Below are positions 23,373 through 35,888 of a DNA stretch of 64,000 nucleotides, piece after piece. How positions within the stretch are numbered: the first letter of the stretch is position 1; the number at the start of each line of letters is the position of its first letter. A program made the position numbers and the translations under genes. Under the pieces are notes generated by a model. It saw only the letters and a list, made by a program, of their open reading frames with translations. It was not told the DNA's origin and made no database searches. Source of the stretch: an uncultured Thiotrichaceae bacterium (lineage in GTDB: Bacteria; Pseudomonadota; Gammaproteobacteria; Thiotrichales; Thiotrichaceae); the NCBI GenBank assembly GCA_937925855.1, contig CALAMO010000020.1:1-64000 (forward strand). Direction: 5' to 3'.

Positions 23373-23743
23373 ACAGCGTCCGCCTCGATAAATGGCTGTG
23401 GGCCGCTCGGTTTTTTAAAACGCGCCAGCTGGCGGTAGAAGCCATTAGCGGGGGCCATGTGCATATTAACGGCGACCGGGTGAAACCCTCGCGGGCGGTG
23501 CGTCCCGGCGATGAACTGCGTATTACCAAGGGCCATGACACCTGGCTGATCACCGTATTGGGCCTGAATGATAAGCGTCGCCCGGCGAAAGAAGCGACGT
23601 TGCTGTATCAGGAAGACGACCATCAGCGAGCGCAGCGCGAACAGCAAACGGAAATGCGCAAGCTGCACGGGGTGAATATTCCGACGCGCAAACCCGATAA
23701 GCGCGAGCGGCGTAAGCTGGAATCGTTTAAGCAGTCTTGGTGA
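23327..23743 (+). CDS. hslR: ribosome-associated heat-shock protein Hsp15
   Basis: This 138-residue protein has an S4 RNA-binding domain (SVRLDKWLWAARFFKTRQLA, then GGHVHINGDRVKPSR) and a basic C-terminal tail (RKPDKRERRKLESFKQSW), the build of Hsp15. Hsp15 binds 50S subunits carrying peptidyl-tRNA and helps to rescue stalled ribosomes after heat shock. Two starts are possible, 23327 and 23348, both inside ycgN; AGGAGG at 23308 lies 13 bases before the first. The 3' end overlaps the convergent patatin gene by 17 bases. Confidence 0.9.
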   Translation: MGRTNHRMAAGSPALDSVRLDKWLWAARFFKTRQLAVEAISGGHVHINGDRVKPSRAVRPGDELRITKGHDTWLITVLGLNDKRRPAKEATLLYQEDDHQRAQREQQTEMRKLHGVNIPTRKPDKRERRKLESFKQSW

Positions 23744-24560
23744 GCGCAGCGAGTTCAGCCGTGTTGTTGAGCACACACTGCTCACCGTGTTGAATCGCCG
23801 TAGCGGCCTTGTAAAATTCCAGCAGACTTAAGGCGCTTACCTGCGGGCAGAGTAAAACATCCGGTGGGTCGTCGCTGAGGCGGCACTGGGTGATGCGGTT
23901 ATGGGTAATATTAATGGTGCCCGTCAGCGTCTCCATTAGGCCGGGTTCCACGTCTGCAGCAGCTTCGCGCTGTGCTGTTTGCATGCTATTTACATTAACC
24001 GCAATCACTCTATCCGCCCCAAGTGCCCGACACAGCGAGACCGGCACCGGATTCACCAAACCACCGTCTACCAACCATCTGTCCTGATAGGCCAAGGGTG
24101 GAAACAGGCCGGGCAGAGCAATCGAAGCCCACACGGCATCAATCACTTTACCTTCGCGCAGCCAGATTTCTTCCCCGCTGTGTAAGTCGGTCGCCACTGT
24201 GGCGAAGGCGGTATTTAGGCCATCGATGCTTTGTTGGGTGGCGCACACATGGTCGTTGAAAAATTCGCGTAGTTTCTGCTGATGGGCGAAGCCATTGAAG
24301 CGCGCTTTTAGCTCAAAGTAGCGCATCATCTCCAATTTACCCAGCGATAAAGTCCACTTTTCCAGTTTGTCTAAGTTATTAACGGCATAGGCCGCGCCCA
24401 CAATCGCACCAATCGAACAGCCCGCAACAATGTCAGGTCGGATACCCATTTTATCTAGCTGTTTTAGCACGCCAATATGAGCCCAGCCGCGTGCGGCACC
24501 ACCGCCAAGGGCGATACCAAGGCGTGGTTTTTGGGGCTGAATCAGGGAGTGTTGTGACAT
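23727..24560 (-). CDS. patatin-like phospholipase (RssA family)
   Basis: This 277-residue protein has the patatin catalytic set: oxyanion loop LGGGAARGWAHIGVL, nucleophile GCSIGAIVG (Ser about residue 48) and the catalytic Asp in DGGLVNPVP. It has no signal peptide. RssA-like members are serine lipases or esterases of unclear physiological role. It starts five bases after the stop of the di-haem peroxidase gene and so may be the last gene of the operon that runs down from 30696. Functional connection to that operon is uncertain. Confidence 0.88.
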   Translation of the reverse strand: MSQHSLIQPQKPRLGIALGGGAARGWAHIGVLKQLDKMGIRPDIVAGCSIGAIVGAAYAVNNLDKLEKWTLSLGKLEMMRYFELKARFNGFAHQQKLREFFNDHVCATQQSIDGLNTAFATVATDLHSGEEIWLREGKVIDAVWASIALPGLFPPLAYQDRWLVDGGLVNPVPVSLCRALGADRVIAVNVNSMQTAQREAAADVEPGLMETLTGTINITHNRITQCRLSDDPPDVLLCPQVSALSLLEFYKAATAIQHGEQCVLNNTAELAALTKTA

Positions 24561-24565
24561 AGTGT

Positions 24566-25876
24566 TTAATCCTTTGCGGCCAGCGCCTTTAAAAAAGCCA
24601 GCAGATCGGCTTGCTCCTGGGCGGAAAAGGCGGGTGCCTGCAAGTGTGCGGCACCGGCTGCCAGCTGAGTATAATGGTGGATAACAGCGGCCAGCGTTGG
24701 GCTGCTGCCATCGTGAAAATAAGGTGCTGTATTGCTGATATTGCGCAGTGTTGGTGTCTTAAACGCCTGTCGCAGCGTATGACGGTCGCGTTGCATAAAG
24801 CGCAGTTCAGCACATTGTTCTGCCTTTGCGTCGCTATAATCCCCCAAACAGTTAAAACGGTCAAAGCGTATTTTATCCAGCGCAGCGGCGCGGCCCGAGT
24901 CTTGTGCGCCCCCGGTGCCGACGTTATGAAAGGATTGATTGGTTAATAATGGGCCAAAATGGCAGTTAATGCACTGTGATTCACGCTGGATAAACAGCCT
25001 AAGTCCGGCGAGTTCCTGCGGGCTGAGCGGTGATTTTTGGCGTAGTGTGCTCGGTGGTTTGCTCGATAGTTTGCTGGGTGAATAACCGCGCGCACTCAGC
25101 GGCTGCTGTGTCCCAGCTTGTGAGGGCTGGGTGTAGCTTGCGATATAATCATCAAGCCGGGTACGCACCGGGGGCAGTGTGCTGAGGTAGGCGGCGATGG
25201 CTTTACCCATATGAGCGAAGACGGTATCGATCTGTTGCCGTTGGCTTGCAGGCATTTTTTTCCAGGCTTTGATCTGGGCGACGCTGCCAGAGGGCTGCGC
25301 CTCATCCGCTAAGTTCTCAGCTGGGCTGATGGGCACGCTGCCAAACACCTGCTGATAAAGGTGGCGATACACCGGTTCGGCCTGGATGAGCTTGGCCAGA
25401 CGAGTACGTGGGAAATCATGCTCCGCCGAATTTTCAAACGGTGCCAATGCCTGTGACCACAAACTGTCTTTCCCTCCGTCCCAGAGGAACCAGCGATTAT
25501 GGGCCACGCCGCGCAGCGATGGCGTATTGCGTTTGCCTAGATCCTGCCCGCGCGCGATGACTTTACCATCTGTGAAGTGGTTGGCTGGGTCGTGGCAGCT
25601 GGCGCAAGCAACCCGGCCATTTTTACTCAGCCGCCGATCAAAGAATAGTTTCTTGCCCAGTCTGGCTGCCGCCGGGTTATTTTGGTAGCGGTTGCTGGGG
25701 TCTGTCGGTGGTTTCAGCCGGTCAATGGACAATGATTGGATAATGCGCCATTCGGCTGCGCTCCAAACCTTGGGCGAGTCGGGGCTGACCTCAGCGGAGT
25801 GTGCGTCAAGCGGGCTGAGTAGCAGGGGTACGAGCAGTAAATACAGGCCGTATAACGGCTTAAATGCTAAAGTCAA
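24566..25876 (-). CDS. di-haem cytochrome c peroxidase / MauG-type oxidase
   Basis: This 436-residue exported protein (signal peptide residues 1-28) has two c-haem sites, CASCH (91-95) and CINCH (302-306), and the family blocks KLFFDRRLSKNG, RNTPSLRGVAHNRWFLWDGG (Trp132 likely between the haems) and PTLRNISNTAPYFHDGS. CcpA members reduce hydrogen peroxide. MauG and MbnH members instead use high-valent haem to modify residues of a partner protein. The axial ligand that tells them apart cannot be fixed without an alignment. The gene overlaps the YtkA-like gene by 17 bases and follows two copper-amine-oxidase-like genes, which makes a MauG-like maturation role worth testing. An insert at residues 250-285 is rich in Ser, Pro and Gln. 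Confidence 0.88.
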   Translation of the reverse strand: MTLAFKPLYGLYLLLVPLLLSPLDAHSAEVSPDSPKVWSAAEWRIIQSLSIDRLKPPTDPSNRYQNNPAAARLGKKLFFDRRLSKNGRVACASCHDPANHFTDGKVIARGQDLGKRNTPSLRGVAHNRWFLWDGGKDSLWSQALAPFENSAEHDFPRTRLAKLIQAEPVYRHLYQQVFGSVPISPAENLADEAQPSGSVAQIKAWKKMPASQRQQIDTVFAHMGKAIAAYLSTLPPVRTRLDDYIASYTQPSQAGTQQPLSARGYSPSKLSSKPPSTLRQKSPLSPQELAGLRLFIQRESQCINCHFGPLLTNQSFHNVGTGGAQDSGRAAALDKIRFDRFNCLGDYSDAKAEQCAELRFMQRDRHTLRQAFKTPTLRNISNTAPYFHDGSSPTLAAVIHHYTQLAAGAAHLQAPAFSAQEQADLLAFLKALAAKD

Positions 25877-26291
25877 AGATTATCCTGTCGTCACCTAATG
25901 CGCCTTCGACTGCAAAACCCAGCAGCCAGCGTCCCGGCATATTGTATTGCAGCCCGTCGATGCGGTAGTGGCCAAGTTCATCCTGAGACGTGAGCACGGG
26001 TGCCGTCGGCAGACCGTGCCCGTGGGCGGGCATTGCACCTTCCAGCCTTACGGTCTGTACGGCGACGGCTTGGTTTTGACGGTTGCTGAAGCTAACTTGG
26101 CAGTCATGAAACTGACCGGCTTGTGGGGCACCTACACAGTCTAACTGTGCTTGATAATAGCCTTCAGCACCTGCGGCGCTTTGCTGCCAGGGGGTGGGTG
26201 CTGGAGCAGATCCGACGTTACAACCGGTCAGCATCATGCTGCTTAATGCTAGCGCCATGCGAATGGGTATGGGGCGTGGCGGAATCGTCAT
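25860..26291 (-). CDS. YtkA/FixH-like lipoprotein
   Basis: This 143-residue protein has a lipoprotein signal with lipobox LTGC (Cys about residue 24) and a YtkA/FixH-like immunoglobulin-type domain. The conserved block is GAMPAHGHGLPTAPVL, followed by YRIDGLQYNMPGRWLLGFAVEG. The His and Met residues of the block could bind copper, as in related periplasmic copper proteins. It lies between the amine-oxidase-like gene (33-base gap) and the di-haem peroxidase (17-base overlap). A metal-delivery or docking role for those proteins is inferred from position only. Confidence 0.8.
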   Translation of the reverse strand: MTIPPRPIPIRMALALSSMMLTGCNVGSAPAPTPWQQSAAGAEGYYQAQLDCVGAPQAGQFHDCQVSFSNRQNQAVAVQTVRLEGAMPAHGHGLPTAPVLTSQDELGHYRIDGLQYNMPGRWLLGFAVEGALGDDRIIFDFSI

Positions 26292-26324
26292 GGTTGAACC
26301 TCGTGCTGATGGTGCTAATGGCGC

Positions 26325-28850
26325 TTATTGATAAGTAATACGCAGGTTATCAAAAGCGGCTTCTATCAGGCCGCCTGCGCCACCATCAGCTGCTTCCAAA
26401 TCCAGATAGATGGCCTGGCCTGCGAAACCACTCAGGTCGAGGCGTAGTTCTTGCCAGTTGCCCAGCTGATTGGCTGCCCGGCCCTTGTGGCTGAAGAGCT
26501 GCTGGCGCTGGCCGTTTTGTCTGACGACATAGATATTGAAGTAATCGACGCTGCTGCTATGGCGTAGGTGTGCAAAATAATAGTCCAGTGAGAGCTGATA
26601 GCGGCGGTTTGCCGGTAGCCTGATGAGCGGTGAGCGTATGCTGGTTTTACCGCCATCAACGTCGTTGCTGCCGACGGCTTCACCCTCTGCCGCGCCGGTG
26701 ACCATGGCTTTGCCGCCGTGCTGCACCGGGCCGGGTTGCAGGGTTCTGCCTTGGAAGTGGGTGATTTTTGGTATGGCATTCTGCCACTGTCCCTTAGTGG
26801 CGCTATCATCACCAAGTGGGTTTAATGTCCATTGGGCTGCGGTTGAAAAATCAGTGCGGAATAGCACATCACCGGGTGCCCCAATGCCGCCGCTGATTGG
26901 CGGGGGTGTTGCGCTACGGCCGGTCTGTTCAATCTGTATCTCATCAATAGCGGCTTCAACAATGCTGTTGTTGCCACCGTCCGCCGCTTCGATGAGTAGC
27001 TGGACTTTGCTGCCTGCCAGTGCGCTGATATCAGCATCAAGGATGCGCCATTGCGCTGCGCGGTTAACGGTTGACCCCTGCACTAACAGCAGGGTGCTGC
27101 GACTGCCGCTGGTGTTAACCAAGCTGATCTTCAGGTAGTCCGCCGCAGTCGCATTACTGAGGTGGGCGAAATACCAGGCCAGTTTGATGCGGTACTGGTG
27201 TCCAGCGGGGAGGTCAAACTGCGGTGAGCGCATGCGAGTGACGCCACCGTCAACATCATGTGCATGTGCGGAACCCCCCGCCGCTGCACCAGTAACCAGT
27301 GCGCGGCTGCCGCGATAGGCATTGCCGATTTGTAGGGTGTAGCCATCGTGTGATGTTGCCTGCGGATTGGCAAATTCCCACTGTCCATGACTGGCGGTAT
27401 CGTTTTGCTCTGGATTAAGCGTCCAATCTTGGGTATTGCTCTCAAAGTTTGCCTGATGTATTACCCCAGCGCTAGAAGGCGTTGCGGTGGGTGCGGGTGT
27501 TGGTGCAGCCGTTGCCGTGGGAGTGGGTGCCGGTGTAGTCGTTGCGGTGGGAGTGGGTGTTGGTGCAGCCGTTGGCGTGGCGGTGGGCGCAGTCGCTGGT
27601 GTGGCGGTGGCTGCAGGTGTCGGCGTTGCGGCTGGGGTGCTAGTGTTACCGCTGCTAGCTTGGGCGTCACTCAGCGGATTTTGGTCGTGCCAGTCGAGTG
27701 GTGTGAGACTGATGAATGACCAGTGCGCATCCATAATGGGGGCGTCTTCGGCACGTGGCATGTGATAGAACGTTGTGCTCGGCCAGACCACAATGTCTTG
27801 TCCGCTGAGGCTTTCGCCATTAACAAAATCAGCTAAGTTCTCAGCGCAGCCCGTGTTGGTTGGATTGTGCGAAGCGAAGCGCTCGCAGTTCCGGTAGTGG
27901 GTAACATACAAGTCGTTATGGGTAAAAGGTTCGCTGTCCGGGCCGATGTCCTGGTGCTCTGCCTGATGGAGGCGGATTTCGTAGGCAATGGGTTGGCCAT
28001 TGGTCGCCTTGATGTTGCCATCTGCGATGCGCCAGCGGCGCAGTGTGCGGGGCGCAACGCGACTGGCGGTTTCAGATGAGTAGCGTCGGTTAGTGCGTTT
28101 GGTTTGGCCGTTTTCCTGGGTGAAGTTCAATTCTTCTACATAGTCATCGCTGCGAGTACCCGCGAGGTCAAAGTCCAGTTTCCAAAAGAAGTTATGCAGG
28201 TGAGCAAGGCTGATTTTATTGTCCCCAGTCAGCCAGCCGTATCGGGCTTTACTGCTGTCGCCAAAGCGCTGGAGCGCACCCGTAGCGCCAATGCCGGGTT
28301 CAATGGCACCGTTATCAAGAAACCGCCATACCGGAATATAGTGGTAGGCTCCAATCTTAGAAACGCTGAACAGGCTGAGTGCATTGCCGGCTAGTTGATC
28401 TGTGCCATAGCGGTAGGCGGTATCATTGGCTTCCGTTTGTTGACACAGCACCGGTTTGCGATTGAATGTCAGTAGCTGGCCGCCGGGGCATTCGTTTTGT
28501 GCCAACTGCGCCATGTAGCCACCACCTAAACCGTAGTCAGTCACATCATGATAACGAGCGCCGTTATCATCATAAGGCACATGGATTTGCGCAATGGCCG
28601 CCTCGTTTAAAATCATCCGTCTGCCGCCATTGCGCGGCGTGTAATGTATTTTGTGCAGCACAATGCCTTCACGGTTACGGTGTTCCCAGCACATGTCCCA
28701 GCGTGCCTGATTGGGCAAGGTCACATCAATATAAAAAGCGTCAGAACAGAATTCGGCAGCAGCCAGCGGCGCATTCCAGCCTGCGCATAGGCCAAGCGCT
28801 ACTAAAAAAGGGAGGCAGCGGCGGAGTACAGGGATCTTGTTCTGCTTCAT
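26325..28850 (-). CDS. secreted copper-amine-oxidase-like protein with two C-terminal repeat domains
   Basis: This 841-residue protein has a Sec signal (cleavage near residue 32). Residues 35-395 match the catalytic domain of copper amine oxidases. The copper ligands are kept as His217-x-His219 in AHLHNFFWKLDF and His363 in FYHMPRAEDAPIM, and the catalytic Asp is probably Asp102 in HDVTDYGLGG. The motif for the topaquinone tyrosine, normally TxxNY(D/E), reads KIGAYHY (Tyr169 kept; Thr, Asn and Asp changed). A Thr/Pro/Ala linker (401-462) leads to two homologous jelly-roll-type domains of about 180 residues, each with a DVDGG...RSP block and a C-terminal LIEAADGG-like block. The start ATG at 28850 is set by the signal peptide; the upstream open frame is spurious. 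The usual N2/N3 domains are absent but are encoded two genes upstream. Confidence 0.8.
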   Translation of the reverse strand: MKQNKIPVLRRCLPFLVALGLCAGWNAPLAAAEFCSDAFYIDVTLPNQARWDMCWEHRNREGIVLHKIHYTPRNGGRRMILNEAAIAQIHVPYDDNGARYHDVTDYGLGGGYMAQLAQNECPGGQLLTFNRKPVLCQQTEANDTAYRYGTDQLAGNALSLFSVSKIGAYHYIPVWRFLDNGAIEPGIGATGALQRFGDSSKARYGWLTGDNKISLAHLHNFFWKLDFDLAGTRSDDYVEELNFTQENGQTKRTNRRYSSETASRVAPRTLRRWRIADGNIKATNGQPIAYEIRLHQAEHQDIGPDSEPFTHNDLYVTHYRNCERFASHNPTNTGCAENLADFVNGESLSGQDIVVWPSTTFYHMPRAEDAPIMDAHWSFISLTPLDWHDQNPLSDAQASSGNTSTPAATPTPAATATPATAPTATPTAAPTPTPTATTTPAPTPTATAAPTPAPTATPSSAGVIHQANFESNTQDWTLNPEQNDTASHGQWEFANPQATSHDGYTLQIGNAYRGSRALVTGAAAGGSAHAHDVDGGVTRMRSPQFDLPAGHQYRIKLAWYFAHLSNATAADYLKISLVNTSGSRSTLLLVQGSTVNRAAQWRILDADISALAGSKVQLLIEAADGGNNSIVEAAIDEIQIEQTGRSATPPPISGGIGAPGDVLFRTDFSTAAQWTLNPLGDDSATKGQWQNAIPKITHFQGRTLQPGPVQHGGKAMVTGAAEGEAVGSNDVDGGKTSIRSPLIRLPANRRYQLSLDYYFAHLRHSSSVDYFNIYVVRQNGQRQQLFSHKGRAANQLGNWQELRLDLSGFAGQAIYLDLEAADGGAGGLIEAAFDNLRITYQ

Positions 28851-28860
28851 TGTATTTCGC

Positions 28861-30027
28861 CTAATAAGGATTAGTAGGGTTCCAGTCGCGGGGGATGAGC
28901 TTAAAGCGGTTCCAGCGTGTGGCAACTCGGTTACTGTCTTCGCTGCGCGGCAGGTAGTGGCGGCTTTGTTTGTACCAGACCACAATGTCGGCACCGTCGA
29001 GATTTTGTCTATCCTGAGTGAAGGCATGCATATTGCCTGTACAGCTGTTTTGGGGGTTGTTGGCACCGTGCCGCTCACAATCCCGATAAGCAGTGAAGAA
29101 GAGGTCGTGCTTTAGCCAGTCGACGTTGGCGCTGTTGGCACCGCTCTGGTCATAGTGCTGTGGGATGATTTCGTAGGAGATCTTACCGATGGCGTTATGC
29201 CCGACTTCAGCGTCGACTACGCGCCAGAACGTTTTATAGTCCGGGTTGAGGCTAACACCCCTCTCGGTCGATACAGGACGCAGCACTTTGTCTTTTTTCG
29301 TGCGATCAGCGGTGGGTACGCTGTTTATCTCTTCGATGTGATCGTTGTTACTGTTGCTGTCTAAATCAAAGTCTAGTCGCCATAAGTAGTGATCGGTATA
29401 GCCCGTTGCGATCTGGTTATTGGCCGCGACGGGCCAGCCAAATTGTGCGTCATTGTTGCCTACGCTAGGTAAGATGCCACTCAGCCCAATCGCAGGTTCA
29501 AGCGTGCCATTCTCGTAGAATGACCAGCGGGTTTGGTAATGCCGGGGACCGCGTTGAGCGAAGGTGCTGATCTGGAAAACCTCGGTTTGACGCTGCCGCG
29601 TGTATTTATACAGATAGCCCGCTTTTTTAGTGCGGCTGCATAAAACGTTGCGGCCTGCGAAGGCGTGCAGCGTGCCCTGTGGGCACTGAGCCTGAGTGAG
29701 GCTGGATAGGTGGCTGCCTCCTAGGCCGGTAGTTGTGTCCATTAAATACGCCGCTGCCGTGCCATCATCCCGCCGGGTTTCGATTTGGGAGAGTGCGGCC
29801 TCACCCAGGACGCGCCGTTGCAGCGTGCTTGGGGCCTGATAGTACACCTGCGATAGTACTAGGCCTTCCTTAGCTTCAATCCGCCAGCAGAAATTCCAGA
29901 CCGCGCCAGAACCAAAAACCTTGCGCATCGGAGTGCCCTGACAGCGGGTATCGGGGGTGGCGCTAGCCGGTGCGTGCCAGCTGAGCAGCAAACCAACAGC
30001 GCAGAGCAATGCACCGAATTTATTCAT
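28861..30027 (-). CDS. secreted degenerate copper-amine-oxidase-like protein
   Basis: This 388-residue exported protein (signal cleavage near residue 23) is a paralogue of the catalytic domain in the next gene. The two share the fold landmarks, for example RWSFYENGTLEPAIGLSG against VWRFLDNGAIEPGIGATG, and WRLDFDLDS against WKLDFDLAG. The topaquinone position is Arg162 (GPRHY) and the HxH copper motif is replaced by YTD, with a His one residue later; only His357 (HYLPRSEDSN) is kept. It is therefore unlikely to be an active amine oxidase by itself and may be a structural or regulatory partner. Its start codon directly follows the stop of the upstream gene, and ten bases separate it from the next. 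Confidence 0.78.
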   Translation of the reverse strand: MNKFGALLCAVGLLLSWHAPASATPDTRCQGTPMRKVFGSGAVWNFCWRIEAKEGLVLSQVYYQAPSTLQRRVLGEAALSQIETRRDDGTAAAYLMDTTTGLGGSHLSSLTQAQCPQGTLHAFAGRNVLCSRTKKAGYLYKYTRQRQTEVFQISTFAQRGPRHYQTRWSFYENGTLEPAIGLSGILPSVGNNDAQFGWPVAANNQIATGYTDHYLWRLDFDLDSNSNNDHIEEINSVPTADRTKKDKVLRPVSTERGVSLNPDYKTFWRVVDAEVGHNAIGKISYEIIPQHYDQSGANSANVDWLKHDLFFTAYRDCERHGANNPQNSCTGNMHAFTQDRQNLDGADIVVWYKQSRHYLPRSEDSNRVATRWNRFKLIPRDWNPTNPY

Positions 30028-30696
30028 CTAATAGCTCACGTTTTGGGTAACGATCCCAGCGGATAAATTAATGATCGGGCTGAGCTCGAACACAATGGAA
30101 TCGTGGGTGTACAGTAAAAGCTGGGCGCAGCGCTGTAGGCCACATTGCAATGATGCGGCGTTGAGTGGTTCGGGTAGGGTGTCTGCGCTAAACGTAAAGG
30201 CTTTGATATGGAGCTGTTCTGGGTTCAGCAGATAACGGCCAGTAATGCGCTGGTACTCAGTCTGCAAAAGGCTGAGCTGTTCCGCATCGTTAAAAATAAT
30301 GGCCGTCGCTCGATCAATCTCGTGCGGGGTCAGTGGGAGCTGCATGAACTGGTGACGTTCATTTGACAAGATTTTTTGGCGGTCAAGGTCAACAATAAGG
30401 TGAATAGTTTCATTGCGCTCATAGTCATAGCGATAAATATCTGCGAGGCGTAGGCCTGGGTTATCTTTATCGCTTGGACGACGTTCAATCAGTAAGGTTT
30501 CTGGGGCTGGGGCATCGGTTTGGTCTGGCTGAGCTTGCTGCTGAAGGCGCTGTTGGGGCAGGCTTAAGTTGAGTGCAGCGGTGATTTCTTGGCTATTCAG
30601 TGGGTCGAGTTCTTTGGCGGCGACATTTAGGGCACAGCAGGCCATCATCATGCCAAGCAAGAATCCTTTAGCTGGACTATGGGCGAGCTTAATCAT
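30028..30696 (-). CDS. secreted stand-alone amine-oxidase N2/N3-like domain protein
   Basis: This 222-residue exported protein (signal with cleavage near NVAA) resembles the N2/N3 domains that precede the catalytic domain in copper amine oxidases. Shared features are the opening DPLNSQEITAALNL, then a strand pair ADIYRYDYERNETIHLIVDL and the characteristic PLTPHEIDRATAIIFND helix. In typical enzymes these domains are part of the same chain. Here they form the first gene of the operon. The ATG at 30694-30696 starts the signal peptide; an upstream in-frame codon at 30783 adds residues without homology. A role in assembling the two catalytic-type proteins is inferred. Confidence 0.72.
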   Translation of the reverse strand: MIKLAHSPAKGFLLGMMMACCALNVAAKELDPLNSQEITAALNLSLPQQRLQQQAQPDQTDAPAPETLLIERRPSDKDNPGLRLADIYRYDYERNETIHLIVDLDRQKILSNERHQFMQLPLTPHEIDRATAIIFNDAEQLSLLQTEYQRITGRYLLNPEQLHIKAFTFSADTLPEPLNAASLQCGLQRCAQLLLYTHDSIVFELSPIINLSAGIVTQNVSY

Positions 30697-31046
30697 CGTT
30701 AGGTTTTGTCCGTTTTGGGGCAGCAGCAAGCTGTTTTCTGTTAATACAGGATTAATATATGGATGGGGCCGCAAACTCACCATGGCGAAGTGTCCGGGCG
30801 GTCATTAATCTTCGATGGGAATAGCGTCCTCTAATAAGCGGCTGTTTATGGAAAATAAACGGCAGGTTTTAGCCGCTGGCAGTGCGTAAATAGAGGGCTG
30901 TTTGGGTGTCGCTAGATTAGGGTAACTGCTCTTTATTAAATATAATTATTGGTGGTAATAAAATTTATTGTTGAAAGTGTGCGTTGGATACCCCAAGATA
31001 AATCTAATTCAATAATATTAACGTATGCTTATGCTGCGAGGTGCTA
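30697..31046. other. divergent promoter region, amine-oxidase-like operon / soeABC
   Basis: This 350-base gap separates two divergent operons. It holds an AT-rich stretch (30930-31020) fit for promoters and a hairpin-forming GTTTAT...ATAAAC pair near 30843-30860, nested in GCGGCT...AGCCGC. No regulator gene or clear known operator is seen. Confidence 0.5.
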
Positions 31047-33974
31047 ATGAGCGCATTACCTAAGTTTGAACCCCATAGCCAGCAGGACGTAAAAGCGACG
31101 ACCTGCTATATGTGTGCATGTCGCTGCGGCATCAAGGTCACGGTGGAAGACAATCAGGTGCGCTATATCCAGGGCAATCGTGATCACCCCGTTAATAAAG
31201 GTGTGCTGTGTGCTAAAGGCAATGCAGGCATCATGAAACAAAATTCCCCGGCGAAATTGAGCACCCCGTTATTGCGTAAACCGGGCACCGAGCGTGGCGC
31301 GGGTGAGTTTGAGCCGATTCCGATGGCGCAGGCGCTGGATATTTTGGAAGCGCGTCTGCGCAAAATTCGCGCAACCGACCCGCTGAAGCTGGCTTACTTT
31401 ACCGGTCGCGATCAGATGCAGGCGTTAACCGGTTTCTGGGCTAGCCAGTTTGGCACTTTGAACTGGGCGGCACACGGTGGTTTTTGCTCGGTGAATATGG
31501 CGGCGGGCGGCTTGTACACCATGGGGCATGCCTTTTGGGAATTTGGTGACCCCGACTGGGAGCGTACCAAGTACTTTATGCTGTGGGGAGTGGCGGATGA
31601 TCATGCTTCGAACCCGATTAAGATCGGGCTGGAAAAGCTAAAGCGCAACGGCGGTAAGTTTGTTGCGATCAATCCGGCGCGCACGGGCTATCAGGCCATT
31701 GCAGATGAGTGGGTTGGGATTAAGCCGGGTACCGATGCGATGTTTGCGCTGTCGATGCTGCATGTGCTGTTAAAGAACGATCAGTTCGACTGGGAATTTC
31801 TGATTCGCTATACCAATGCGCCGTATCTGGTAGTAAATACACCGGGCAAGAAAGGCCACGGTTTAATTGCGCGTGATAGCGGCGGTCATCCCCTGGTCTG
31901 GGACATGGAGAAAGACGAGGCGGTCGATGGGACCCAGGCTGACATCATGCCCGCGCTGTTCTATGAGGGCGAAGTGGGTGTGCAGCCCGTGAAATCAGTG
32001 ATGGTGCTGCTGGCGGAGACCTATCTTGATGCGCAATATGCGCCAGAAAACGCGGCGCAGGTGTGCGGTGTTCCAGCGGAAAGCATTGAACGCATGGCGC
32101 TGGAAATGGCGCATGTCGCGTTTAAAGAAAGCATTGAAATTGACGTGCCGGAGGGCTGGACAGATTGGGCCGGACGTAAGCACTATAAATTTGTCGGGCG
32201 TCCGGTGTCGATGCACGCGATGCGCGGTATTTCGGCGCATTCCAATGGTTTTCAAACCTGTCGGGCGATTCACTTTCTCCAAATCATGTTGGGTTCGATT
32301 GATGTGCCGGGCGGGCACTTAGCCAAGCCACCGTACCCCAAACATATCCCTCCGGCGATAAAACCGGCCAAGCACTGCGCCCCGAATACGCCGCTGCAAG
32401 CGCCGCCTCTGGGTTTCCCCACCGGGCCGGAAGATTTGGTGATTAATGCGGATGGTTCGCCCAAGCGCATCGATAAGGCTTATTCCTGGGACGCGCCGAT
32501 GTCGAATCACGGTCTGATGCATATGGTGATCACCAATGCGGTGAAGGGTGACCCGTACGAGATTGACACGCTGATGATGTTTATGGCGAATATGGCCTGG
32601 AATTCGAGCATGAACAGCGCGGAAATGCAGCAGAAGCTGTGTACGCAGACCGATGATTCCGACCCGGCGGAGCCGCAGTATAAGATTCCGTTTATTGTGG
32701 TATCGGATGCTTATCATTCAGAAATGGTGAACTACGCCGATTTGGTGATCCCAGACACAACGTATCTGGAGCGCTACGACACTATTTCGATGTTGGATCG
32801 GCCTATTTCTGAGCCGCACGTCGCGGCAGATTCGATTCGCCAGCCGGTGATTACGCCTGAGCGTGATGTCCTGGCTTGGCAGGAAGTGCAGCTAGAACTG
32901 GGGATGCGCCTGGGTTTTCCGGCGTTGGTGAATGAAGACGGTTCGCGTAAATTCGAGGGCTATCAGGATTTTATCGTCAATTGGGAGAAGGAGCCGGGTA
33001 TTGGTTTTCTCGCGGGTTGGCGCTTGGATGAACACGGTAAGGAAACCCATCTGCGTGGCGCGCCTAATCCAAAGCAATGGGAGCGGTACGCTGAAAACGG
33101 GGCCTTCTTTGAAATGGAGTTGCCAGCGCATATGCGCTATTACCGCCATGCGAATAAGGATTACCTGAAGTTTGCTAAAAATGCCGCCTGGGTCGGTTCC
33201 ACCGAGCAGATTGTGCTTGAACTATATTCCGAAACGCAGCAGCGCTTTAAGCTGGCTGGGCAGGGGCTGTATGACGGCCCGATGCCAACGCAGGCGCATC
33301 ATAAGGAGCGCCTCAGTACCTACTTCAATCCGCTGCCGTTTTACTATAAGCCGATCGAGCAGTGCCGGGTGGATGAGGTGGAATATCCGTTCTATGCGGT
33401 GACGCAGCGGCCCATGTTTATGTACCACTCCTGGGATTCGCAAAATGCGTGGTTGCGCCAGATTTGTGCGCAGAATTTTCTGTATATGAACCGTGCGCGG
33501 GGCGAGTCGTTGGGGATTGTGGATGAGTCTTGGTGCTGGGTGGAATCGCATAACGGTAAGATTCGGGTGCAGGTCAAGCTGATGGAAGGCTGTCAGCCGG
33601 ATACGGTTTGGACGTGGAATGCGATTGCGAAGCGTAAAGGTACTTGGGGGTTGGATGAGCAGGCGAATGAATCAAATGATGCTTTTTTGATGAATCACCT
33701 GATTTCTGAGCTGCTGCCCGCACAGGGCGATGCCGAGGATAAGGTCACGAACTCTGATCCAATTACCGGGCAGGCCGCTTGGTATGATCTTAAGGTTAAA
33801 ATTTATCCAGCAGATGCGGGTGAAACAGGTACTTGGCCGACGTTCCCAGCGATAAAGCCTTTGCCAAACGCAAAACCCTCGCCGCAGATACTGCGCTACC
33901 AGACGCATGAGGCGGTGAATTTGAAGCGTGCATTTAAGGATGTACTGGCTAGGGGGAGTGTCCATGATGAGTAA
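31047..33974 (+). CDS. soeA: SoeA-type molybdopterin sulfite dehydrogenase catalytic subunit
   Basis: This 975-residue protein is a DMSO-reductase-family molybdoenzyme. The N-terminal [4Fe-4S] site is CYMCACRCG with the last ligand in GVLCAKGN, followed by molybdopterin-binding domains (for example MLWGVADDHASNP and AINPARTGYQAIADEW) and the C-terminal cap. It lacks a Tat signal, so it works in the cytoplasm, as SoeA does in purple sulfur bacteria, where SoeABC oxidises sulfite to sulfate and feeds electrons to quinone. The order A-B-C and the lengths also fit. A polysulfide or thiosulfate reductase is less likely because those catalytic subunits are exported. The ATG at 31047 follows GAGGTG; a GTG two codons earlier is the alternative. 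Confidence 0.85.
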   Translation: MSALPKFEPHSQQDVKATTCYMCACRCGIKVTVEDNQVRYIQGNRDHPVNKGVLCAKGNAGIMKQNSPAKLSTPLLRKPGTERGAGEFEPIPMAQALDILEARLRKIRATDPLKLAYFTGRDQMQALTGFWASQFGTLNWAAHGGFCSVNMAAGGLYTMGHAFWEFGDPDWERTKYFMLWGVADDHASNPIKIGLEKLKRNGGKFVAINPARTGYQAIADEWVGIKPGTDAMFALSMLHVLLKNDQFDWEFLIRYTNAPYLVVNTPGKKGHGLIARDSGGHPLVWDMEKDEAVDGTQADIMPALFYEGEVGVQPVKSVMVLLAETYLDAQYAPENAAQVCGVPAESIERMALEMAHVAFKESIEIDVPEGWTDWAGRKHYKFVGRPVSMHAMRGISAHSNGFQTCRAIHFLQIMLGSIDVPGGHLAKPPYPKHIPPAIKPAKHCAPNTPLQAPPLGFPTGPEDLVINADGSPKRIDKAYSWDAPMSNHGLMHMVITNAVKGDPYEIDTLMMFMANMAWNSSMNSAEMQQKLCTQTDDSDPAEPQYKIPFIVVSDAYHSEMVNYADLVIPDTTYLERYDTISMLDRPISEPHVAADSIRQPVITPERDVLAWQEVQLELGMRLGFPALVNEDGSRKFEGYQDFIVNWEKEPGIGFLAGWRLDEHGKETHLRGAPNPKQWERYAENGAFFEMELPAHMRYYRHANKDYLKFAKNAAWVGSTEQIVLELYSETQQRFKLAGQGLYDGPMPTQAHHKERLSTYFNPLPFYYKPIEQCRVDEVEYPFYAVTQRPMFMYHSWDSQNAWLRQICAQNFLYMNRARGESLGIVDESWCWVESHNGKIRVQVKLMEGCQPDTVWTWNAIAKRKGTWGLDEQANESNDAFLMNHLISELLPAQGDAEDKVTNSDPITGQAAWYDLKVKIYPADAGETGTWPTFPAIKPLPNAKPSPQILRYQTHEAVNLKRAFKDVLARGSVHDE

Positions 33975-34074
33975 ACACCCCCAGTCCCCAGCCCCCTCTC
34001 TCTTACAGGGCGAGGGGAAGAACGTGCTCAGTGCTTTGGTTCCTCTCCTGTTGAGGGAGAGGCTTGAGGGTGGT
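33975..34074. repeat. composite palindromic repeat between soeA and soeB
   Basis: Two hairpins lie in tandem: CCCCTCTCTC...GGGCGAGGGG (about 33993-34017) and CCTCTCC...GGGAGAGG (about 34041-34062). The ends CACCCCC and GAGGGTGG are roughly inverted. It resembles the repeats at 13780 and 54476. Confidence 0.7.
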
Positions 34075-34100
34075 AGCTTTTTCCGCAGGGAGGTGCAATT

Positions 34101-34796
34101 GTGAAATTGGGCTTAGTGATTGATCTGGATGTGTGTGTGGGTTGTCATGCCTGTGCGGTGTCCTGTAAACAGTGGAATACGTCCGGCACCACCGGGCCGC
34201 TCACGGATTATCAGCCCTATGGCGAAGATCCCAGCGGCGTTTGGTTTAACCGTATCCGCCACTATGAAGTTGGTGATTATCCGCATAATAAAACCATTAA
34301 TTTCCCGATGTCCTGTATGCACTGCGAGCAGGCCGATTGTGTCGATGTATGTCCGACTGGCGCGAGTTATAAGCGGGAAGAAGATGGTATTGTGCTCATC
34401 GACCAGGATAAGTGCATGGGCTGTAACTACTGCTCATGGGCCTGTCCCTATGGTGCGCGGGAGCTGGATCGTGAATCCGGGGTGATGAAGAAATGTACGC
34501 TGTGCGTGGATCGGATTTACGATGAGAATCTGGCTGAGATTGATCGCCAGCCGTCGTGTGTCATTACCTGTCCGGCGAATGCGCGTCATTTCGGCGATTT
34601 TGATGATCCTAATTCCAATGTGAGCCAGCTAACGCGGGAACGTTCGGGTTATCAGCTGATGCCTGAGTTGGGTTATAAGCCGACGAATCAATACTTACCG
34701 CCGCGTTTGACCCGGCCGGTGCCGACTGATGACGTGAAGAAAAAGTCATTAATCAGCTCGATTAAGGAATGGACGAATAAGGCGATTGCGCGCTAA
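34101..34796 (+). CDS. soeB: SoeB-type four-cluster iron-sulfur subunit
   Basis: This 231-residue protein carries four cysteine groups for four cubane clusters: CVGCHACAVSCKQWN, CMHCEQADCVDVCP, CMGCNYCSWACPYG and CTLCVDR with CVITCP. This is the pattern of DmsB/PsrB/SoeB electron-transfer subunits that wire the molybdenum site to the membrane subunit. It begins with GTG at 34101, preceded by AGGGAGGTG. It has no signal, as expected for a cytoplasmic complex. Confidence 0.9.
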   Translation: MKLGLVIDLDVCVGCHACAVSCKQWNTSGTTGPLTDYQPYGEDPSGVWFNRIRHYEVGDYPHNKTINFPMSCMHCEQADCVDVCPTGASYKREEDGIVLIDQDKCMGCNYCSWACPYGARELDRESGVMKKCTLCVDRIYDENLAEIDRQPSCVITCPANARHFGDFDDPNSNVSQLTRERSGYQLMPELGYKPTNQYLPPRLTRPVPTDDVKKKSLISSIKEWTNKAIAR

Positions 34797-34949
34797 ACGC
34801 CTGCCGCCACACGATTGCGCTTGGCATTTTGCTTCCTAAGTCGGTCGCTAAATGCTTATTGATCAGGGTGAGCTGCGCGTTTTCGACCGATTTTGTAACT
34901 AAGCTGCTTGCGTTCATCAGTTTTGAGCACAGGCTTTGCGGAGAGTGAT

Positions 34950-35888
34950 ATGCATCCGGCATTATCTGTTATTTTCTTTACCGTCGCTTCGGGGGCGGGT
35001 TATGGTCTGTTTATTCTATTGGCGCTTGCCCACCTATTAGGCTTGGGTGATGTCGATGGTAAAACTCTGCTGTGGGGCGGTTTGCTGTCGCTGCTGCTGA
35101 TTACGGCGGGTTTACTGTCTTCGGTCGGGCACTTGGCGAATCCTAAAAATGCTTGGCGGGCGTTTTTCCGCTTTAAAACCTCCTGGCTGTCGCGGGAAGG
35201 GGTGTTTGCCGTTTTGTTTTACCCCTTTGGTTTTTGCTACCTGCTGTTGGCCTGGCTGTCCGATGGGGCCGTCGGTGCGCTGACGCTGGTGCTGGGCGGG
35301 GTGGCCGTGCTGCTGGCGCTGATTACGGTGTTCTGTACCGGAATGATTTATGGCTGCCTGAAAACAATTCGGCAGTGGAATACCTCATTAACGCCGACAA
35401 ATTACTTACTGCTCGGCTTGGCGAGTGGCTGTGTGGTGCTGGTGCTGGTGTTATTACTGACTGGGCAGCAGGCCGATGCGATGGCGGGTTTGGGCGTGGC
35501 TTTATTGGTCTTAGCGGCGCTGGCGAAAGGGGTTTATTATTTCTGGATGCGGACGCTGAGCGGGCCAACGATTAATACGGCGACAGGATTCACGCGGGCG
35601 CAGGTGCGCCTATTGGATGCGGGGCATACGGCGGGGACATTTTTGACCGATGAATTTGGGTACCAAGCTCCGCTGAATCAGCTGTTTTGGATGAAGGTAG
35701 GGGTGTTTGTTTTTGGGTTTGTAGTGCCGGTGCTGGGATTGGGGGCGGTGCTGGCTGGGGTTGGCGGTGGTTGGTTTGCCGGACTGGCGGTGGTTTCGGT
35801 GTTTGTGGGGGTTGGGGCTGAGCGCTGGCTGTTTTTTGCTGAGGCGCGGCATGTGGTGAATCTTTATCATGGGGCGCAGCGGACGTGA
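34950..35888 (+). CDS. soeC: SoeC-type (DmsC family) membrane anchor
   Basis: This 312-residue protein has about eight or nine hydrophobic helices and opens with HPALSVIFFTVASGAGYGL, the DmsC/SoeC hallmark. It would anchor the SoeAB module on the cytoplasmic face and pass electrons to ubiquinone. The ATG at 34950 has a GGAGAG ribosome-binding site; an in-frame codon at 34908 would add 14 residues without homology. The 153-base gap after soeB shows no clear terminator. Confidence 0.87.
   Translation: MHPALSVIFFTVASGAGYGLFILLALAHLLGLGDVDGKTLLWGGLLSLLLITAGLLSSVGHLANPKNAWRAFFRFKTSWLSREGVFAVLFYPFGFCYLLLAWLSDGAVGALTLVLGGVAVLLALITVFCTGMIYGCLKTIRQWNTSLTPTNYLLLGLASGCVVLVLVLLLTGQQADAMAGLGVALLVLAALAKGVYYFWMRTLSGPTINTATGFTRAQVRLLDAGHTAGTFLTDEFGYQAPLNQLFWMKVGVFVFGFVVPVLGLGAVLAGVGGGWFAGLAVVSVFVGVGAERWLFFAEARHVVNLYHGAQRT

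Follow-up and report, generated by a model that had tools for sequence, protein, structure and literature searches.

The domains of a copper amine oxidase (CAO) are distributed over three separate exported proteins, P1, P2 and P3 (together, the triad), in the 64,000-nucleotide stretch analysed here (the window), which is part of contig CALAMO010000020.1 from the 3.57 Mb genome of an uncultured Thiotrichaceae bacterium. One of two catalytic-domain paralogues, P3, retains the copper, tyrosine and aspartate residues of the CAO active site; by its residues the other, P2, is a degenerate pseudoenzyme. The two genes that follow encode a YtkA-like lipoprotein, P4, and a di-haem cytochrome, P5, which is regularly partnered with P4, including in genomes where a P3-like gene was not found. 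The genes are as follows, with positions those of the window and labels in the order of transcription:

P1, 30028-30696, minus strand: exported N2-N3 (D2-D3) module of a CAO as a separate chain, 222 residues.
P2, 28861-30027, minus strand: exported CAO catalytic-domain paralogue, degenerate (predicted pseudoenzyme), 388 residues.
P3, 26325-28850, minus strand: exported CAO catalytic-domain protein with intact Cu/Tyr/Asp site, 841 residues; a catalytic domain, a Pro/Thr-rich linker and two C-terminal MAM/choice-of-anchor-J stretches.
P4, 25860-26291, minus strand: YtkA-like lipoprotein with M..HxHG and M..G.W motifs, 143 residues.
P5, 24566-25876, minus strand: di-haem c-type cytochrome of MauG/MbnH/BthA type, TTG start, 436 residues.
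P6, 23727-24560, minus strand: RssA-like patatin, which adjoins the operon and lies outside the conserved unit.

A preliminary description of the locus had reported six genes on one strand with small gaps or overlaps, and the list of open reading frames (ORFs) and the examined starts bear this out, the spacings from P1 to P6 being 0, 10 and 33 bases, an overlap of 17 bases, and 5 bases. It had also read the locus as a split CAO. That reading is right, as judged by profile and fold matches to CAO domains. P2 and P3 match PF01179 above the Pfam cut-off (1.1e-29 and 2.4e-44, respectively), and the rest of the host genome gave no further PF01179 match, i.e. there are two in total. A model of P3 residues 1-421 made with AlphaFold2 (mean predicted local distance difference test score, pLDDT, 84) has CAOs as its best Foldseek matches in the PDB, at about 1e-25; the best 50 of its 94 matches at E<=0.001 are all CAOs. 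The earlier domain calls hold for P2 to P6, all of which lie above Pfam cut-offs. P1 has no Pfam match up to E 10, and its match to N-terminal profile positions 10-126 of NCBIfam PRK11504, a primary-amine oxidase model, is far below that model's cut-off (2.6e-6, 26 bits). The P1 model (mean pLDDT 83, run on the 251-residue ORF) matches PDB entries that are CAOs in 49 of 49 cases at E<=0.001; the start was set at 30696, and homologues are of similar length. The usual linkage of N2-N3 and catalytic domains on one chain is not found here, P1 being encoded apart from P2 and P3. The C-terminal stretches of P3 match MAM (6.9e-8) and, below cut-off, choice_anch_J (2e-5). The tails of P3 vary by lineage: by eye, dockerin-like, proprotein-convertase P-domain-like and immunoglobulin-like repeats are seen (L122 2176-4173, L123 448-2469, L114 5736-9497), in the place of the MAM/choice-of-anchor-J stretches of P3 in the window.

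The conservation of the P3 active site is complete for the residues that bind copper, supply the catalytic base and provide the cofactor precursor. The alignment comprised 219 rows, of which 157 were distinct and 155 counted (20 canonical, 76 P3, 59 P2), two fragments of L122 broken by N having been dropped; the genes in the P2 position at L114 and L118 scored slightly higher with the P3 profile and were counted as P2, and the tree places that of L114 inside the P2 group. The Tyr305-equivalent, the Asp base, the precursor Tyr, the Tyr at +2 and the three copper His are kept in all 76 distinct P3 sequences, although the count for the second His (His2) is partly circular, some P3 loci having been recruited by a pattern containing it; His2 is also kept in the 45 of 45 P3 rows recruited through P2 instead (the window and L048-L087). 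The consensus T-x-x-N-Y-D/E of CAOs that use topaquinone (TPQ) is not found in P3.

By contrast, the set of three copper His, Asp base and precursor Tyr is lost from P2. The Asp base, His1 and His2 (the HxH pair) are each kept in none of the 59 sequences; of the other residues, 25 sequences retain His3, 29 the Tyr305-equivalent and seven a Tyr in the cofactor column. A His one column past His2 occurs in 24 of the 59, such that a shift in the alignment could hide one His, but even with this shift allowed P2 would still miss Asp and His1. The former cofactor position is occupied by 12 kinds of residue. On these alignment counts P2 is a degenerate paralogue, i.e. a predicted pseudoenzyme with its active site lost.

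The triad is a split CAO that recurs in the Thiotrichaceae and elsewhere in the Gammaproteobacteria, and it has relatives in Chloroflexota. Matches were found in 27 of the 63 genomes of the order, at least two in each. A class-wide sample gave matches in eight of 369 genomes, the host included; outside the family the split form was seen only in G354, and the remaining five were ORFs 643-710 residues long. When 84,980 species were scanned, each represented by one genome, 63 loci were found, with labels that include Leucothrix, Cocleimonas, Methylomonas, Pseudomonadales, Granulosicoccaceae, Hydrocarboniphaga, Caldilineaceae and Herpetosiphonaceae. P1, P2 and P3 occur together in 27 of the scan loci not labelled as Thiotrichaceae genera, a count that includes L122 (P2 broken by N) and L114 and L118 (P2 assigned as above); some of these contigs end within or shortly after P3, that of L118 inside it. 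Within Chloroflexota all three genes occur only at L122, with two genes each at L123 and L134. The preliminary description had named two findings that would tell against it, namely no significant match to amine oxidase domains and a gene set conserved in no other genome; neither occurred, since CAO matches were found and the neighbourhood survey shows the gene set to be conserved.

In a quick tree of 101 rows with open forks, P2 forms one group (Shimodaira-Hasegawa-like approximate likelihood ratio test support 99) and the canonical CAOs another (100); P3 needs two changes. We read the order of events as a split of the chain first, then duplication and decay of P2, an order that the tree leaves unproven. 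Tandem P2-P3-P1-P2-P3 arrays are present at L068 (6322-11707) and L069 (7830-13278), in two genomes of the same genus that also carry the full operon, with P4 and P5 not beside them. The triads of Granulosicoccaceae (L131, L132, L136, L139, L142, L144-L146, L149, L150) have partly similar neighbourhoods; by eye, most are preceded by MaoC-like and glutamylcyclotransferase-like genes and followed by a GreB-like gene. An apparent P1-P2 fusion at L128 (606 residues) was rejected; P1 aligns only to residues 406-596, and the rest is probably an over-long start.

P4 is YtkA-like by its match to PF13115 (7.9e-7, 30.1 bits against a cut-off of 25.9), with a lipobox-like LTGC by eye; no NCBIfam family matched up to E 1. 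Met87, His90, His92, Pro98, Met118 and Trp122 are invariant in 39 of 39 sequences. P5 has two CXXCH motifs and matches PF03150 (CCP_MauG, 1.7e-37) above the Pfam cut-off. Its matches to TIGR04039 (MbnH; 8.7e-36, 123.6 bits against a cut-off of 362.85) and TIGR03791 (TTQ_mauG; 9.9e-36, 123.4 bits against 443.85) fall short, and P5 is not assigned to MbnH or as a MauG equivalog. Both CXXCH His, together with Tyr402 in the axial-ligand position, are present in 41 of 41 sequences, which would put P5 in the MauG/BthA class. This Tyr aligns with a Met of 1iqc (258 by count) that we take to be an axial haem ligand. It aligns also with a Tyr of BthA, for which the position count did not reproduce the published spacing of His371 and Tyr463 (PMC6405878). 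Tyr-His ligation is a feature of MauG and BthA (PMC6405878). The interhaem Trp is kept in 37 of the 41. In four P5 sequences of the Cocleimonas group (L062, L063, L076, L084) it is replaced by Ala, with the Tyr ligand retained.

In 23 of the 27 matching genomes of the order, P4 and P5 stand beside triad genes; in the other four the contig ends first (P4 only in G401). Neither gene stands beside the second cluster, L056. Outside the loci labelled as Thiotrichaceae, P5 directly follows the triad in only one of 27 (L126), where P3 has the same altered Tyr motif as other P3 proteins. In a sample of Pseudomonadota, with at most four candidates scored per genome, 14 of 398 genomes matched the P5 profile at E<=1e-30, i.e. 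13 besides the host, nine of which belong to a single family. All 13 are cassette genomes, with P4 immediately upstream of P5, and a P3-like gene was found in none of them; a repeat on six of them together with five positive-control genomes recovered all five controls. In the triad genome G436, P4 and P5 are fused in one chain of 565 residues. Among 30 YtkA loci of a longer list, HxHG is present in eight of eight with P5 beside and in none of 22 without (Fisher p 1.7e-7), the eight being related cassette genomes already among the 13. Thus, given the cassette adjacency, the fusion and the tracking of P5 by HxHG, the regular partner of P5 is P4. Twenty triad genomes came from outside the order search. 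Eleven of them carry the P4-P5 cassette, as separate genes or fused, or have P5 linked to the triad: the two genes are adjacent at L151, L153, L155-L160 and L229, fused at L154, and at L152 P5 is beside the triad without P4. No paper joining YtkA, copper and cytochrome c peroxidase was found in the open-licence literature.

The explanation favoured here, to which a probability of about 0.47 is given, is that P1, P2 and P3 form a heteromeric relative of the CAOs, with P4-P5 as a separate copper-site module that serves P3. P1 would supply the N2-N3 domains as a separate chain of an exported heteromer. P3 would be the catalytic subunit, with copper on the three His, a Tyr-derived (topaquinone-like) cofactor and the Asp base, probably oxidizing primary amines with dioxygen to give aldehyde, ammonia and hydrogen peroxide. 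P2 may be an inert protomer that replaces one half of the usual homodimer. The putatively Tyr-ligated, MauG-like P5 would work with or oxidize P4, and P4, taken to bind copper, would in turn meet the demand of P3 for copper. By analogy with what has been suggested for CorA-CorB, P4-P5 most likely acts in copper-site maturation or delivery. The modular tails of P3 suggest a cell-surface or polymer-bound amine as its substrate.

Observations on the P3 motif, on the reach of the P4-P5 linkage and on the need for P2 weigh against this explanation. The Asn before the cofactor Tyr is absent from all 76 P3 sequences (Ala in 61), as is the Asp/Glu after it, and Thr(-4) is kept in two; of the 20 canonical controls, all have Asn, 19 have Asp and 15 have Thr. 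P3 may have a function other than amine oxidation, its Tyr being unmodified and the copper/Tyr/Asp site catalyzing other chemistry or only binding copper. This is improbable: the Asp base and Tyr305-equivalent, on which amine turnover and the positioning of TPQ depend (PMC3382800), are kept throughout, and pure copper binding would not require them. The same losses could mean that P3 no longer processes itself, with P5 acting on P3 (or P2) as MauG does on pre-methylamine dehydrogenase and completing a Tyr-derived cofactor or cross-link. The preliminary description had proposed much this, a di-haem protein that builds a cofactor in one of the paralogues. That the N404A variant of HPAO-1 forms 5-10% TPQ (PMC3382800) accords with a need for help, as do the Tyr-ligated class of P5, its position in the order and the like interpretation of an mtoX-SCO1-mauG operon (PMC5739008). 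Loss of the Asn need not stop TPQ formation, however, since the N381A variant of Arthrobacter AGAO is deposited as a holo form, by the title of entry 7wir. Moreover, the same altered motif is present in P3 where P5 is unlinked, i.e. in 26 of the 27 non-Thiotrichaceae loci (the L118 contig ending inside P3), and P5 keeps to P4 in the 13 sampled genomes without the triad. The old cofactor site of P2 was rejected as a target, and P2 is a poor one because of the 12 kinds of residue there. Action of P5 on a CAO paralogue is, overall, rather unlikely, and a partnership of P5 with P4 is likelier; direct action on P3 in the Thiotrichaceae is possible, because P5 belongs by alignment to the Tyr-ligated class and is linked to the triad in 23 of the 27 matching genomes in the order. 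A housekeeping role, in which P5 is no maturase but a peroxidase clearing hydrogen peroxide made by P3, would fit with peroxide production by CAOs (PMC3382800), with the CCP_MauG superfamily and with BthA, which is likewise Tyr-ligated and reduces hydrogen peroxide efficiently (PMC6405878). It is a distinctly unlikely role given that canonical bacterial peroxidases are Met-His ligated (PMC6405878) whereas P5 has Tyr in 41 of 41, that P5 travels with P4 where a P3-like gene was not found, and that the tandem arrays have no P5 beside them.

The reach of the linkage is itself limited. P5-type matches at E<=1e-30 occur in 13 of the 20 triad genomes against 13 of 397 sampled Pseudomonadota, a comparison confounded by relatedness and unequal scoring depth; it is in part withdrawn as evidence of co-occurrence, three P5-type genes inspected in two of the 13 triad genomes, both Methylococcales, having no P4 beside them. 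Nine of the 20 have no cassette or linked P5 among the matches inspected (G429, G430, G431, G435, G441 and G446; one weak match in G439 was not fetched), and two of these, G440 and G447, have no P5-type match at E<=1e-10, their P3 proteins nevertheless carrying the altered motif, which is a further point against P5 as the maturase of P3. The Trp of P4 is weakened as a mark of P5, since the G-x-W pattern is present in 18 of 22 YtkA domains without P5; it is HxHG, not Trp, that separates P5-linked from other YtkA proteins, given its split of eight of eight against none of 22. With respect to P2, three genomes (G435, G440, G448) have P1 and P3 without P2, these being metagenome bins in which the one P2-profile match each is their P3, and the G448 contig beginning within P1. 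Solitary P3-like genes of 458-584 residues (L070-L075, L085-L087) are also present, P1 and P2 not being in the fetched stretch; the genomes concerned also carry triad genes. P3 may thus work without P2. HPAO-1 dimers with one zinc site have poor activity at both sites (PMC3382800), and human VAP-1 is inhibited by heterodimerization with an inactive splice form (PMC3548902). Both results make an efficient oxidase with one dead protomer less probable, so P2 could be a regulator, a dominant-negative or export partner of P3 outside the active complex, the working oxidase being a P1/P3 homodimer. This is unlikely, in that P2 is kept between P1 and P3 across loci and P2-P3 pairs are repeated in tandem arrays; these patterns suit an obligate subunit no less well. 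A doubtful further variant is that P3 has a protein-derived cofactor other than TPQ, with P2 shaping the site and, in the Thiotrichaceae, P4-P5 completing or loading it by a novel oxidation.

The neighbouring genes contribute little to these questions. P6 (Patatin, 5.4e-31, above the Pfam cut-off; PRK10279 RssA, 2.4e-73, below cut-off) was rejected as a member of the system, a patatin being near the operon in three of 40 fetched related loci, all of the same genus. Predicted promoters (six against 5.1 expected from shuffles) and terminators (15 against 9.1) are uninformative. At 31041-35888, divergent from P1, are genes for a molybdopterin oxidoreductase, a ferredoxin-type protein and a membrane subunit, dimethyl sulfoxide reductase-like by eye.

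In this locus the CAO domains are separated, with the catalytic one duplicated and one copy decayed, an arrangement shared by several groups of Gammaproteobacteria; relatives with two genes occur in Chloroflexota bins. In the open-licence literature, CAO was not found together with Thiothrix, with MauG and diheme, or with pseudoenzyme. The triad offers a natural test of the roles of the N2-N3 domains and of the second protomer, and of whether topaquinone can form without the conserved Asn and acidic neighbour. Alongside CorA-CorB and MbnP-MbnH, P4-P5 may represent another kind of copper protein paired with a MauG-like enzyme, in bacteria well beyond the methanotrophs of those systems.

Compared with the TPQ CAOs (PF01179), e.g. 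E. coli ECAO, AGAO and HPAO-1, P1 and P3 are alike in their N2-N3 and catalytic folds, and P3 in the three copper His, Asp base, cofactor Tyr and Tyr305-equivalent. By contrast, those enzymes have one chain, whereas here there are three, including a predicted pseudoenzyme paralogue, and the consensus Asn and Asp/Glu are lost; the CAOs structurally characterized up to 2012 were all homodimers, according to a review (PMC3382800). The pairing of an inactive with an active CAO form has a parallel in human VAP-1 and VAP-1-delta-3 (PMC3548902), but the latter is an activity-lowering splice variant, not a separate conserved gene, and the N2-N3 region is not split off. P5 resembles MauG, of tryptophan tryptophylquinone (TTQ) biogenesis, in its two haem-binding motifs and, by alignment, its axial-position Tyr, but is far below the TTQ_mauG cut-off. 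MbnP-MbnH is alike in that a small partner protein is encoded beside a di-haem protein of the family that P5 matches, but the P5 score is below the MbnH cut-off, P4 is without an NCBIfam match, and MbnP presumably has kynurenine chemistry. In the CorA-CorB and MopE-SACCP pairs of methanotrophs, likewise, an exported protein that binds copper is encoded together with a di-haem member of the peroxidase family (PMC3912023), the cytochrome of CorA-CorB being proposed to oxidize a Trp near copper to kynurenine; in one homologue, copper still seemed to be bound in the absence of the di-haem partner (PMC3912023). P4 differs from CorA, which is compared here by description only, in being YtkA-like. 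The mtoX-SCO1/SenC-mauG operon combines a copper enzyme, a copper chaperone and a MauG-like protein (PMC5739008); its copper enzyme is of the SBP56 type and its chaperone SCO1, set beside P3 and P4 by description only, and chaperone-MauG fusions are reported in some bacteria (PMC5739008), as P4 and P5 are fused in one triad genome.

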